Of a stretch of 64,000 bases of DNA, positions 3,077 to 14,900 are shown in pieces. The translations under genes were made by a program, and so were the position numbers. The stretch's first letter is position 1, and each line of letters begins with the position of its first letter. The notes under the pieces were generated by a model, which saw only the letters and a list, made by a program, of their open reading frames with translations, was not told the DNA's origin and made no database searches. The DNA comes from an uncultured Lentisphaeria bacterium (GTDB lineage Bacteria > Verrucomicrobiota > Lentisphaeria > Victivallales > UBA1829), in assembly GCA_949282305.1 (NCBI GenBank), contig CASDPB010000121.1, positions 46,382 through 110,381 of the forward strand, read 5' to 3'.

Positions 3077-4915
3077 ATGGCACGCATGATCCCGGAGTTC
3101 AGCCATCACATTGACAAGGCGCCGCCGTTCCGCAAGACCGGCAATCCCGAGCTGGACCGCGGGCGGCAGACGGAAAAGGAACTTTATATCTTTCTGCGTG
3201 ATCTGCTGCCGGACAACTGGGTCGTGCGTTACAGTTTCGAGTTCACGCGCCGGACGGATGAACTGATTGAGCACGAAGCGGATTTCGTGGTGGTGATCCC
3301 GCGCTGCGGCGTTCTTGTTCTTGAGGTCAAGGCGAGCGAGAGCTACGGACTGCGCAACGGCGTCTGGTATTTCGACCCCGAGTGCCGTCATGTCAGGGAG
3401 GGAAACCCGTTCTCGCAGGCGCGTGCGACACGTTTCGAGCTGAAACGGAAGATGCAGGATTACATGCACAAATCTTTCTCCGGACTTTTCGGCAGCATTG
3501 TCGTATTTCCGAACGCGCGCCGGATTCCGGGGGAGAATGCGGCGCCCTCGTCCCAGGACCCCGACATTATCATGACGGGCTATGATCTGGTGCGGGATGT
3601 CCGGAACCGTTCTCTTGCAAGGCATCTGGAACATACGCTGACGCTGTTCGGGGATCACGATCTGGTGGAGATACGCCGCAATGCCTTCAATCAGAAGGAG
3701 ATGGACACCGTCGTCCGTTTTCTGGAGGACAATTACACGCTGGAGCCCTACCGCGCTTTCACCGACACCTATTATTCGCATCTTCTGGATCAGCTTACGC
3801 AGGAGCAGATCCGTCTGCTTTCGAGTCTTACGCGAAACCGCCGCGTCATGGTGTTCGGACCCGCCGGTTCCGGCAAGACCATGCTCGCGCGCTGGGCGGC
3901 GATGAATGAGGCGCAGCAGCTCGCGGAGAAGAAAGGCAGAGTCCTGCTTCTGAGTTACAGCCCGGTGCTTGCCGCATATTTTTCCATTGAAAATACGTTC
4001 GACAATCTGGAGATTACGACCTTTCAGGCTCTTTGCGCGGAACTGCTGCAAAAGCTGGCTCCCGAAATGAAAGTCCCGCCGGAATCGGCTTCGGAGGAGA
4101 TCAGAAAACGTTTCTGGCTGGATGAACTGCCGTCGCTTCTGGAGGAACATTCCGAAACTTCCTGCTATGACGCGGTTTATATTGACGAAGCGCAGGATTT
4201 CGATCCGTTGTGGGCTCCGGTTCTCGCAGGACTGCTCCGCGATCCGGAACATTCCAAACTTTACTGTTTCGGAGATCCGAACCAGAAAATTTTCGAGAAC
4301 AGTCTGGACAATGATTTTGAAGGGTTCACCTTGTTCGAGCTGCGGGAGAACTGCCGCAACACGCGCGAGATCGCGGAAATGTGCCAGCGCATGAACGGGA
4401 CGCTGGAAAAAACCGCCGTCCATGACATCAGTTACCGCCGTCCGGAGGTCTACCCGGCGATTGCGGATACGGAAACCCGTGCGGAGTTTCTCGCGCGCCG
4501 CATCAATGAGCTGCTGCGCTCCGGTATTTCCCCTGCCAATATTGCGGTTCTTTCCCCGTGGGATTATACCGATTCGCGTTGTTCGCTTCCCCTGCTTGCC
4601 GCGAAACTGCATACCCCCCTGCTGGGCGAGTGCCATATCCGGAGCGGAGCAGAATGTTCGATTCAGGAACTGATCCGGACGCTGGAAAAGTGGCGGAATG
4701 GGGAGTGTATCTGGGGCGGAACCATCCATGCGTTCAAGGGATTGGAATCGGATCATATTCTCCTGACGGATCTTCCCGTTACCGGAACGCCGGGATTCAG
4801 CAGACGCGATTTCTATGTGGGGGCATCCCGCGCGAAACTGCTTCTCTATCTGCTTCCTGTCAGCGAAAAGGCGGAAGAGGAAATCCGCGGATTCGTCGGG
4901 CGGGAAATTAGGTAA
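3077..4915 (+). CDS. NERD domain plus UvrD-like superfamily 1 helicase
   Basis: A 612-residue fusion. Residues about 20-130 form a NERD (nuclease-related) domain with the nuclease-like core HEADFVVVIPRCGVLVLEVKA. From about residue 255 a superfamily 1 helicase follows: Walker A GPAGSGKTMLARWA (about 260), Walker B YDAVYIDEAQDFD (about 365), arginine motif ELRENCRNTREIA, and the C-terminal HAFKGLESDHILL and FYVGASRAKLLLYL of the UvrD_C_2 type. It probably works on DNA or RNA in repair or nucleic-acid defence; neither is shown by neighbours. It stands alone, and its TAA stop falls in the first unit of the heptad repeat tract at 4914. Confidence 0.85.
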   Translation: MARMIPEFSHHIDKAPPFRKTGNPELDRGRQTEKELYIFLRDLLPDNWVVRYSFEFTRRTDELIEHEADFVVVIPRCGVLVLEVKASESYGLRNGVWYFDPECRHVREGNPFSQARATRFELKRKMQDYMHKSFSGLFGSIVVFPNARRIPGENAAPSSQDPDIIMTGYDLVRDVRNRSLARHLEHTLTLFGDHDLVEIRRNAFNQKEMDTVVRFLEDNYTLEPYRAFTDTYYSHLLDQLTQEQIRLLSSLTRNRRVMVFGPAGSGKTMLARWAAMNEAQQLAEKKGRVLLLSYSPVLAAYFSIENTFDNLEITTFQALCAELLQKLAPEMKVPPESASEEIRKRFWLDELPSLLEEHSETSCYDAVYIDEAQDFDPLWAPVLAGLLRDPEHSKLYCFGDPNQKIFENSLDNDFEGFTLFELRENCRNTREIAEMCQRMNGTLEKTAVHDISYRRPEVYPAIADTETRAEFLARRINELLRSGISPANIAVLSPWDYTDSRCSLPLLAAKLHTPLLGECHIRSGAECSIQELIRTLEKWRNGECIWGGTIHAFKGLESDHILLTDLPVTGTPGFSRRDFYVGASRAKLLLYLLPVSEKAEEEIRGFVGREIR

Positions 4916-5026
4916 GAATGAGGAATGAGAAATGAGAAGTTAAGAGTTAAGAGTTAAGAGTTAAGAGTTAAGAGTTAAGAGTTAAGAGTTAAGAGTTAAG
5001 AGTTAAGAGTTAAGAGTTGCGGGGAA
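4914..5026 (+). repeat. Left heptanucleotide repeat arm, 11 x TTAAGAG
   Basis: Starts with degenerate heptads (ATGAGGA, ATGAGAA, ATGAGAA) and continues as eleven exact TTAAGAG copies from 4940 to 5016, then GTTGCGGGGAAG. The stop codon of the helicase gene lies at the start of the tract. A period of seven, not a multiple of three, puts TAA or TGA into every reading frame. Confidence 0.95.
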
Positions 5027-5046
5027 GTTGATTGGGATATTTGGTA

Positions 5047-5350
5047 CAGGTAGCAAAGATTTTTTTTAGCGTTCTTGCAATAAAACATCACTAATTTTTT
5101 GTGTGATATGCTCTTTGGAATTTGGATTTAATCCCGTACTTTCAGCAATATCGCCTGTAGTATTTTTTATAGCAAAGATTCTTTTTTAGTTGTCTCGCAT
5201 CAGGAGATTACTAATTTTTTTGTGATATACTTTCCGGTCATTCCGCCGGAGGCTCTCTTTCCCGCATCAGGAGATCACTAATTTTTTGTGTGATATGCTC
5301 TCTGGAATTTGTATCTAATCCAGCGTATTCACTCAGCAATATCCCAACTT
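5047..5350. repeat. Three-copy imperfect core repeat between the heptad arms
   Basis: An AT-rich stretch of about 300 bases without a gene. It holds three related units around ATCACTAATTTTTTGTGTGAT at 5087-5109, 5207-5228 and 5274-5296; the ends ATCAC and GTGAT can pair. Copies 1 and 2 share TAGCAAAGATT upstream, copies 2 and 3 share CGCATCAGGAGAT, and copies 1 and 3 share GATATGCTCT..GGAATTTG and CAGCAATATC downstream. No open frame with a start site was found. Confidence 0.8.
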
Positions 5351-5408
5351 CTCATTACACATTACACATTACTCATTACTCATTTCTCATTCTTAACTCT
5401 TAACTAAT
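5351..5408 (-). repeat. Right heptanucleotide repeat arm, inverted
   Basis: Read on the minus strand from the ispH end it runs GTTAAGA, GTTAAGA, ATGAGAA, ATGAGTA, ATGAGTA, ATGTGTA, ATGTGTA, ATGAGAA, then GTTGGGATAT. It is the same heptad family as the left arm in inverted orientation. The last codons of ispH (LVKS) and its TAA lie inside it. Confidence 0.9.
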
Positions 5409-6277
5409 TCAAACTTTTCCCTTCTGAGGATTTCCAGCAGTTCGGAGACAAGTTCCTCGGGAGCCGATGCGCCGGAACTTACGCCGACGGTCGTGACTCC
5501 TTTCAGTAATGACACATCGAATTCCCGGGGATCGGAAAGCAGAATCGCCCGTGCACCGCAGGAGGCGGCGGTTTCGCGGAGACGCTTGGAATTGGAACTT
5601 CCGGCGGAACCTACGATAATGATGAATTCGCACTTCTCTGCCAGTTCCTTGACCGCATTCTGCCGGTCGCGCGTCGCAAAACAGACATCCGCATTGATCT
5701 CCAGATGAGCCAGCGAGGAGGCAAGCAGGTTACGCATTCCGGCGACGTCATCCGCGTTGAGAGTGGTTTGCGAAAGACATGCAAAACGGTCGTTCTTCCT
5801 TTCTTCTTCGGACAGCGAGGCGAGAAACTCGCGAACCGCTTTTTCCGAGTCCAGAACGGCGACTTCCGAGGAGATGCGCCCGAGGACTCCTTCAATTTCA
5901 CGATGTCCCTTTTTCCCGAACAGGAGAATGCGGAACCCATGCGCGGCAAAATCCTCCGCTTTGCGATGCAGTGATTTTACGATCGGACAGGTGGCGTCAA
6001 CCAGATGAATTCCAAGTTTGCGTGCACGTTCTTCGATTTCGCGGGAAACTCCGTGCGCGCTGAAAATCAAAGTTCCGCTTCCGGCTTCTTCGGGTTCGTT
6101 GATGAACCTGACGCCGCGGGCTTTCAATTGTTCCACCACATGTTCGTTGTGGACGATCTCATGCAGGACATAGACTGGCAAAGGACCCCGTTCCAATGCT
6201 TCGCCGACCATCCGCAGGGCACGTTCCACCCCGGAACAGAAACCGCGTTTGGCGGCAAGGTATACGATTCCGCTCAT
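5393..6277 (-). CDS. ispH: 4-hydroxy-3-methylbut-2-enyl diphosphate reductase
   Basis: Last enzyme of the MEP isoprenoid pathway: reductive dehydroxylation of HMBPP to IPP and DMAPP on a [4Fe-4S] cluster in the cytoplasm. The three cluster cysteines are C14 (RGFCSGV), C97 (DATCP) and C199 (NADVCFATRDRQ); substrate-binding histidines H43, H75 and H125 (GKKGHREIEG with the catalytic Glu) are present. Length 294 is close to the short form of the family. The ATG overlaps the stop of trmO by four bases (ATGA), so translation is coupled. Its last residues and stop codon are written by the heptad repeat arm at 5351-5408. Confidence 0.97.
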   Translation of the reverse strand: MSGIVYLAAKRGFCSGVERALRMVGEALERGPLPVYVLHEIVHNEHVVEQLKARGVRFINEPEEAGSGTLIFSAHGVSREIEERARKLGIHLVDATCPIVKSLHRKAEDFAAHGFRILLFGKKGHREIEGVLGRISSEVAVLDSEKAVREFLASLSEEERKNDRFACLSQTTLNADDVAGMRNLLASSLAHLEINADVCFATRDRQNAVKELAEKCEFIIIVGSAGSSNSKRLRETAASCGARAILLSDPREFDVSLLKGVTTVGVSSGASAPEELVSELLEILRREKFELVKS

Positions 6278-11920: not shown

Positions 11921-14900
11921 CTATTTCTGTTTTCTGCGGCGGCTTCCCGCAAAGACTGCAAGGAGTGCGAAAAGAATGACCGCTCCGATGGCGATCTGCC
12001 TGACGGCGGCGCTGTTTTTCGCATGGGTCTGCGGAACGGGATCGAGGCGCTGCTCTTTCAAGACTTGCCCCTCGACCTTTTCACTTCCGGCGGGTGCTTC
12101 TCGGATCTGCCTGGTCGCTTCCTTGTAGGCTGCCGCCGTCTGCGGATCGTCGGACAGCTTGTCCGCGATCATGTCTCTGAGTTTTGCGTTGTTGCAGACG
12201 AAACCGCTGCATCCCGGAGCATATTTCTCAATCAGTTCCGCATGAAGCGCCGCAATCTGCTTCACGGTCGCCTCGTCGGCTTTCCAGCAGCCTTTCCGGA
12301 TCGTTTCCAGCATGATCGCCGTCATTTCCTGATAGGCATACGGATTTTTCTTCTCAAAATACTCCTTCACGCCCAGTTTCAGGCTGTCATCGACATAGAC
12401 CTTCTTATATTCTTCCCAGAGATAATCCTGAATCATGTCCGGCTTGGTGACTTCCCAGCCGTAGGTGTTGCTGAAATAGGCGGCAAAGGTGTTCGCCCCT
12501 GTGGGTCCCTCCTCCATCATCTCCTTGATGTATTTCGGGTTCAGCACGGTGGTCCGTGCTTCGGACATGACCGCCTGGGCGCCGGTCTGGACTTTTGCCT
12601 GTCCCGGAGTGCGGAGGTCGTTGAAATAGACTTCCGGTTCCTTTCCCGTAATATGGCGGATCGCGAGGTTTGCGCCACCGGTGAATTCATAGACATGGTC
12701 GAGCGAAAGCGGGCCCCATGCGCTTGACGAACGCGACTGGACGACGGTGTCCGTATTCTGGAGTGCGGCGCGGTAGACTCCGGGGATGTTCACGCCCCAG
12801 TTTTCCTCGGTGTAAAGAGTGCCGCGGCTGCGGATGAACGCCTCCGCCACGACCGCGGGGTCTTCCCATTTGTCGCCGGACTGCGTCATCTGCCCGACTC
12901 CGGGTCCGTTGTCTTCGCCGTTTCCGCCACCGAAGATTCTGGCGTTTGCAAGTTTCTTCGCCTCCTCCGGAGAGAAACCGCTCTTAATCAGCGCTTTCGC
13001 TGCAATGACGTTGCCTTCCGCGACATAGTTTTCCTGGTCTGTGGACGGATCCGACGCGGCGAGTCTTACGGCGCGGTCGATCAGGCGCATCCGGCTGGTC
13101 GCCGCCCCGCGGAACTGAACCGAGGTCTGCACGACCACGTCAATGCGCGGTCGTCCGAGTTCGGAAAGCGGGATCAGGCGGACATCCTGCACTCTGCCGC
13201 GCGCGTCCCAGACGGGCTCGACGCCGAGCAGGTAGAAGATTTCCCCGATGTCCGAGCCGTGGGTGTTGATGAATTCGCCGCCCCAGACTGTGAACGACAC
13301 CTTTTTCGGATATTTCCCGGTCGATTTGCGTTTCTGCGCGATCAGTTCCTCGGCAAGCTGTTTCCCGACTGCGAAACTTTCCGGCGTCGGAGTGCGTTCC
13401 GGATCGATGCCGTAGAGATTGCGGCCGGTCGGAACGGCTTCCGGATTGCCGATCGGATCATTGCCCGGCGACGGAAAAATATAGCCGCCGGAGAGCGCGT
13501 TGACGAATGCGTCGAGTTCCGCCGGCGTCGATTTCAGCAGATTCTCATACGCTTCCACCGCCCGCAGTTCCGGCGCAAATTTCCTGAGCGGATTTTCATC
13601 GGAGGCGCGGCGTCCGCCCATTCCCATTCCCATGCCCATTCCCATTCCCATGCCCATGCCGCCCATCGGCATTCCGCCGGCTTTGGGTATGGAGGGAGTT
13701 TCCGGTTTTGTCTGTGCCCCGGCGTTCCGCTTCGCTGCCGCCGCTTTCCGCGCTTTTTCCTGTGCGATCCGGACGGAGGGCAGCAGTTGTCTGCCGCTGC
13801 GGACGTCGGCGAAGGCGCGGTCGATCCGTTCCCCCGCCGGTTTCAGATAGTTGCTGTGGTAGAAGAAGCTGTCGGAACGTTTCTTCCTGTCGACCTTGCC
13901 GGCTTTGACGTCCGCCTGGAACATGTCGTAGGCGACCATGTCCACCGTCATGAGTTTTGCGGTTTCCTCCGCCTCGGCGTTCGTGTAGGAGCGTCCGAGC
14001 ACATAGAGTCCGCGGTTGATCTTTTCGCCCTGAAGATCGTGCAGGTAATTGTGCAGAAGTTCCAGATCGGCTTCATTGAGTTTGCCGACGGCGAAATCCG
14101 GGCTGAACTGGAGCTCGTGATCGAACTTCTCCTTCTTCGCCAGTTCGATGATCGACTTGCCGTATTCCTCCTTGAGCCGCGCGTCCTCGACCAGTGCGCG
14201 CATTTCGATTTTGCGGTCAAGCTCGCGGATCGTGCCGTAGCCATCAGCATACATGAACGGTGCAGTCAGATGGCTGATGAGCGCCGCGTAACTGCGGCGT
14301 TTGGCAATCTGCGCTTCGCCCATGTCGTTCATCATGTAAAGATAGTAGTGCGGCATTTCGCCGATGAGCACGTCCGGCCAGTCGTAGCTGGAGAGCGCGA
14401 CCTGTTTCCACGGGGTGAACTCAAGACTGCCGTGCGTTCCGAAATGGATCAGGGCGTCGGCGTCGAATTTGTGCCGTATCCAGAGATAGGTCGCGATATA
14501 GGGATGCGGCGGGGCCATTTTCACGCCGTGCACGACTTTGTCCGTGTCCTCTCCTTCGCCGGAAATGGACTGCGGCATCAGCACGATGTTGCCGAACCGG
14601 AGCATGCCGAGCGCAAGTTTGCCGTCCGGAGTGCGGAAGGTTTTCCCGGGAAATTCGCCGTAGCGCGCCGTCACGGTTTCATAAAGATCGGCGGGCATGC
14701 TTTTCCGTATCCACTCTTCATATTCCTCCCGCGAGATTTTCTCCATCTTCGCTTTTTCCATGAACTCCTGCATCGCGCCTTTCGCGTAGGCGCCGAAGAC
14801 TGCGGCGTTGTCCTGAATCTGGCGGAGCAGTTCTTCGGTGGATTCCGGCAGGTCGCCGGTATTGAAACCCGCTTTTTGCAGATGCCGCAGAAGGTTCAGC

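Follow-up and report, generated by a model that had tools for sequence, protein, structure and literature searches.

The element at the helicase/ispH junction

The window, a stretch of 64,000 nucleotides from the genome of an uncultured Lentisphaeria bacterium, carries a convergent gene pair, a helicase-like gene on the plus strand and ispH on the minus strand, with a 504-base element (4906-5409) between them. In the element, a 332-base core is enclosed by two arrays of 7-base units that mirror each other (4906-5018 and 5351-5409), here called arms. Features of the junction, including the arrays reported by TRF, are as follows; bIVP denotes the protein family PF05635.

3077..4915, plus strand: UvrD/HelD-like helicase-nuclease gene; stop at 4913-4915, in the left arm
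4906..5018, plus strand: left arm; AATTAGGTAAGA, then three AATGAG-type heptamers, then GTTAAGA x11.6
4917..4938: TRF array, AATGAGA x3.1
4938..5018: TRF array, GTTAAGA-type unit x11.6; 100% matches, score 162
5019..5350, no strand: core without bIVP similarity, 332 bases
5024..5041, plus strand: inner inverted-repeat end, GAAGTTGATTGGGATATT (direct reading)
5338..5351, minus strand: inner inverted-repeat end, minus-strand sequence GAAGTTGGGATATT (direct reading)
5351..5409, minus strand: right arm; in minus-strand reading AATTAGTTAAGAGTTAAGA first, then AATGAG, AATGAG/T and AATGTG units
5351..5391: TRF array, CTCATTA x5.9
5391..5405: TRF array, TCTTAAC x2.1
5393..6277, minus strand: ispH; stop at 5395-5393, in the right arm

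The preliminary description had placed a symmetric element of about 500 bases with inverted heptamer arms at this site, and this is borne out by the TRF arrays and by a 31-nt inverted alignment of the outer arm ends, which scores 21 (99th percentile for mismatched pairs of other elements, 14.9). Its two mirrored arrays stand, but the bounds are now 4906-5409, the left and right arms have their units in different orders, and the GTTAAGA expansion is confined to the left arm. The inner junction said to be shared by both arms is likewise mirrored (GAAGTTG(ATT)GGGATATT), but GAAGTTGATTGGGATATT at 5024-5041 and the inverse GAAGTTGGGATATT at 5351-5338 are 3 nt away from identity. Direct reading agrees with the further claim that the arms supply gene ends: the stop of the helicase gene and the final codons of ispH (Leu-Val-Lys-Ser-stop) are both spelled by arm sequence. 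No target-site duplication was seen around the element, the outer flanks being CGGGA and CAAAC.

The junction in related genomes

Two genomes of the same genus (G001 and G003) possess the same convergent helicase/ispH pair, with the two stops 23 and 14 nt apart, respectively, as against 477 nt here, and no heptamer arrays are present at this junction in either. The gene ends differ as well. The helicase terminates in ..FVGREIR* in the window and in ..FVGR* in both sister genomes, and IspH terminates in ..KFELVKS* in the window and in ..GFEEVPDER* and ..GFEMVPGEC* in the sisters, so that these repeat-free relatives do not share the IspH ending of the window, as they would have had to for the earlier proposal to be refuted. 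A third genome of the genus (G002) gave no ispH match. Since the gaps in G001 and G003 are short and repeat-free and the gene ends there are different, the window element is, judged by sequence comparison, an insertion between helicase and ispH; these two genomes alone may also be compatible with its having been lost in an ancestor common to both. In genes such as ispH, an insert can take the place of the final codons, which is of consequence for annotation.

The core

Within the core, an AT-rich segment is present in three imperfect copies (5051-5343), with ends ATCAC...GTGAT; pairwise, 5087-5152 matches 5274-5343 (87%), 5193-5237 matches 5260-5305 (87%), and 5051-5112 matches 5170-5231 (79%). 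Several candidate identities for the core were rejected. A decayed bIVP gene was sought with stops masked, and the best score was 0.7 bits (E 0.35), a value equalled by 19% of 300 shuffled sequences; the same search readily detects the frameshifted bIVP gene of another locus in this genome (C13, below). A known RNA was discarded as the sole Rfam match (E 0.48) is to a Caenorhabditis snoRNA and is attributed to chance. The core is also not a repeated element, with no second copy in its own genome apart from a match of 32 nt in a gene region. No match to plasmids was obtained, and 197 genomes of the class contained no full-length relative, only matches of 27-46 nt.

bIVP genes between mirrored arms

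A search for AATGAG arrays in the same genome revealed a second mirrored pair, with arms approximately 500 bases apart (C40), and between these arms lies an intact four-helix-bundle/23S rRNA intervening-sequence gene (bIVP, TIGR02436) with a solved relative, 2rld. PF05635 occurs at three loci in this genome, and each of the three genes is flanked by inverted arms whose 7- or 8-mer units match: AATGAG heptamers at C40, GAACAAG/GAAGTAA-type heptamers at C23, and GCGAAGTT-type octamers at C13, where the gene is frameshifted. The C40 cassette lies between the permease and ATPase genes of an ABC transporter, which are 530 nt apart here and 18 nt apart in G005. The short gap was found in G005 only: the permease is unmatched in G001 and G002, has a distant match in G003, and lacks an adjacent ATPase gene in G012. 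A scan of 1.05 Mb of the genome for mirrored 7- or 8-mer arms returned the window element and the C40 cassette alone; the scan did not reach C23, at the start of a contig, or C13, on a different stretch.

PF05635 was present in 128 of the 195 genomes of the class that were sampled. Arms were scored for 73 bIVP gene pieces, representing 71 loci in the class, by aligning each left flank to the reverse-complemented right flank, and the 99th percentile of mismatched flank pairs (14.9) served as the cut-off. Inverted arms exceeded it in 37/73 pieces, equivalent to 35/71 loci (32/68 without the genome's own three), and direct-orientation arms in 6/73; the figures for small control genes were 0/16, 2/271, and 2/56. 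Clear arms are absent at the other 36 of the 71 loci, some of which lie near contig ends. Tandem windows were detected in 36/142 bIVP flanks, with periods of 7 (17), 8 (11), 14 (7), and 13 (1), compared with 4/542 and 2/32 control flanks. Arm units match within a cassette and differ between cassettes.

The arrangement extends to plasmids of several phyla, in which 23 of 25 bIVP records scored above 14.9 against 1.8% of mismatched pairs; these records came from a protein search, and several of those from Nostoc and Planktothrix are mutually related. The two below the cut-off are from Monoglobus and one Chlorohelix, and 7/25 records also exceeded 14.9 in direct orientation. The arms of one Nostoc record (L351) form an exact mirror, yet contain no heptamer array. 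Three related Nostoc cassettes carry four, four, and three units, with the same number in both arms, a single case that suggests that the arms of these cassettes change together.

In Anabaena cylindrica and Nostoc TCL26-01, plasmid-borne copies of the bIVP gene (L346 and L363) separate cas2 from cas1, run opposite to these two genes, and are bounded by mirrored AAAAGTA-type arms. Three Planktothrix copies (L348, L366, and L367), which vary in array length, lie between a helicase gene and the next large gene; in two of them the helicase carries the annotation drmD. The Monoglobus copy (L340) is found between hsdS and hsdR.

Heptamer and octamer arrays elsewhere

Arrays akin to those of the window element are, as anticipated in the preliminary description, present elsewhere in the same genome. 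The (GTTAAGA)x3 pattern gives 16 overlapping matches at five sites, and none when the pattern is read backwards; the AATGAGN x3 pattern gives 20 matches, against two for its backwards control. A strict test for tandem runs with periods of 1-20 in 369,586 bases of the genome detected periods of 7 (5 runs), 8 (6), 10 (1), 14 (1), and 18 (3), and no runs of any other period. A tandem repeat with an 18-base unit (GCCCATTCCCATTCCCAT) lies in the window at 13616-13657. The expectation that arrays always lie directly after stop codons fails: among 21 array clusters in 1.05 Mb and one further stretch, 11 are intergenic, five lie over a stop, four are within predicted ORFs, and one lies over a start. 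The arrays of this genome hence prefer gaps, yet are not always placed after stops.

Octamers (GCGAGATT, GCGAGGTT, and GCGAGATA) form a second class of repeat in this genome and often precede or follow heptamers in composite arrays (L170, L171, L174, L259, L260, L262, and L268). A non-tandem motif around GGCTGTAACCTTT, in which a small hairpin is possible, recurs beside arrays at L259, L260, and L262.

Across named genomes of many phyla, the exact 28-mer (GTTAAGA)x4 occurs in at least 112 stretches. A special status for TTAAGAG was rejected, given that viral contigs yielded nine matches to the 28-mer and nine to the backwards-read 28-mer. A bIVP gene is present at two of the at least 112 loci listed, and the idea that bIVP genes accompany TTAAGAG arrays as a general rule was also rejected. 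At one of the two, in a member of the Prevotellaceae (L078), the bIVP gene is adjacent to the arrays and sits between inverted TTAAGAG arms, the unit being that of the window element itself; at the other, in a member of the Planctomycetota, the bIVP gene is flanked by mirrored AATTAAT arms. Partners within 80-1000 nt of a TTAAGAG array were inverted in eight cases and direct in seven among the loci listed, and thus most TTAAGAG arrays are solitary.

Relation to known systems

In size and arms, the window element resembles the intervening sequences (IVSs) of 23S rRNA that carry an S23p/bIVP ORF (PF05635, TIGR02436) in Leptospira, Coxiella, and others, which measure around 430-550 bases and possess inverted arms able to pair. 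The Coxiella IVS, according to sections of PMC4990558, is closed by a 28-bp terminal stem, and RNase III cuts it in vitro; its tandem heptamers, located upstream of the S23p ORF in the region of the stem, differ in number from strain to strain. Insertions in rRNA without an ORF exist beside ORF-bearing forms (excerpts of PMC11270868). The window element differs in lying between protein genes rather than inside rRNA and in having no ORF; because it is located outside any rRNA gene, it may be said to work like an rRNA IVS, by analogy, and not to be one.

Heptamers of the STRR/TAACTGA kind in cyanobacteria, Beggiatoaceae, and Bacteroidota (PMC4679880, in part) are likewise 7-base, intergenic, of mixed units, with stops in three frames and overlap with gene ends, whereas in the window element two mirrored arrays enclose a core, and relatives show a near-empty site. 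The sections of that paper drawn on here make no mention of bIVP genes or of paired inverted arms. An excess of heptamers, stops in three frames, and overlap with gene ends had already been reported (sections of PMC4679880 and PMC4692102). The GGGAATC heptamers of Xanthomonas and the GGGGA(C/T)T heptamers of Nostoc are also intergenic, some forming inverted pairs in convergent regions, but they are G-rich and form G-quadruplexes, and no cassette is described for them (PMC4692102, in part). bIVP genes inside cas loci were noted earlier (an excerpt of PMC3936711), and bIVP proteins resemble Avd of diversity-generating retroelements (an excerpt of PMC10053308). Among open-licence papers, no account was found of mirrored heptamer arms around a stand-alone bIVP gene.

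Bacterial heptamer arrays have been noticed for decades and, to our knowledge, have no agreed role; similarly, we know of no function for PF05635 outside rRNA intervening sequences and Avd relatives. The presence of bIVP genes between mirrored 7-8-nt arms ties these two puzzles together, and both become testable.

Origin of the window element

The explanation we lean towards, by a modest degree, is that the window insertion, whose arms carry both stops, belongs as an ORF-less form to a family of intergenic cassettes in which a bIVP gene normally sits between arms of this kind, a link that the preliminary description did not make. It shares with those cassettes the mirrored 7-8-nt arms and the absence from the same spot in relatives (G001 and G003), and has no bIVP gene in its core. 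Its units recur in the arms of two bIVP genes, TTAAGAG at L078 and AATGAG at C40. As the core shows neither a bIVP signal nor an Rfam match nor a full-length relative, the element would at best be an ORF-less derivative, and since most TTAAGAG arrays also lack a nearby bIVP gene, its membership in the family is something we infer. The core may once have held, or may stand in for, a bIVP gene.

Plain heptamer microsatellites, generated by slippage in a convergent spacer and mirrored by inversion or fold-back copying, with neither a cassette nor a link to bIVP, provide a doubtful alternative, albeit one to be taken seriously. Period-7 arrays without bIVP are common both in this genome and in the carriers of TTAAGAG arrays, where 77 other heptamer runs accompany the at least 112 loci listed and periods 4-6, 10, and 13 have none; heptamers are reported to be over-represented among simple repeats (Mrazek 2007, as cited in parts of PMC4692102 and PMC4679880), and among the loci listed a TTAAGAG array has an inverted partner no more often than a direct one. 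Slippage would, however, leave the absence of the 332-base core from the sister genomes to be explained, as well as the mirrored inner junction and the restriction of mirrored 7- or 8-mer arms, within the 1.05 Mb scanned, to the window element and a bIVP cassette. A relic of a MITE-like DNA transposon, the terminal inverted repeats of which decayed into heptamers or were invaded by them, would account for the length of about 500 bases, the mirrored ends, the internal duplications, and the want of an ORF; the core is nevertheless single-copy in its own genome, is matched over 27-46 nt at most in the class, and has no target duplication beside it, and such an origin is very improbable.

It has also to be considered whether the element is under selection to donate stops or end transcription, closing all frames between convergent genes, a reading in keeping with the position of both stops in the arms and with the all-frame stop tape of the preliminary description. 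Gene ends within arms are recurrent: one or both arms contain the stop of an adjacent gene in 20 of 47 clearly armed bIVP cassettes, involving 15 upstream genes and six convergent genes, with both in one cassette. Arms read from gene to core contain stops in all three frames in 44/73 cases, against 37.3 +/- 3.4 in column-permuted arms (p 0.038), a slight and marginal excess in a count in which the two arms of one element are not independent. The opposite strand, however, shows an excess of comparable size (20 against 15.6, p 0.098), the octamer arms of the genome are mostly free of stops, and the sister genomes terminate both genes without the element. The weak excess would be explained as well by tolerated insertion at gene ends as by stop donation, and selection for the latter is improbable.

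Returning to the bIVP-cassette reading, the cassette would have spread as a unit, perhaps with a bIVP protein acting in trans. With stops in its arms, a cassette could insert at the end of a gene and be tolerated, which would account for the persistence of such cassettes there. Slippage would be the likely cause of changes in arm length, 7 nt at a time, and copying from one arm to the other would keep the two similar. On a broader scale, bIVP genes and their ORF-less derivatives could constitute one large undescribed superfamily of intervening-sequence cassettes across many phyla, settling at gene ends and operon gaps (including CRISPR, restriction, and DISARM operons) and building mirrored arms anew from 7-8-nt tandem units that inter-arm copying keeps alike. 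We put this forward tentatively, as a proposal with somewhat less than an even chance of being right; if it is true, part of the heptamer-repeat excess in bacteria would be explained, and the orphan PF05635 would gain a mobile role.

Folding of the arms

In a transcript across the window element, the arms are predicted to fold into a long stem, which, by analogy with rRNA intervening sequences, might be cut by RNase III, giving each gene a separate processed 3′ end. The outer arm ends are paired in the minimum-energy fold of both strands; the fold z-scores are -0.73 for the plus strand, which is not unusually stable, and -2.43 for the minus strand. Arm mismatches on the bIVP-sense strand of the 47 cassettes showed no G:U bias (57 against 59, p 0.93), and selection for an RNA stem was thus left without support by this asymmetry test. 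The arms may instead be important as DNA. Across these 47 cassettes and the window element, the 5′ arm is purine-rich on the bIVP sense strand in 41 of 48.
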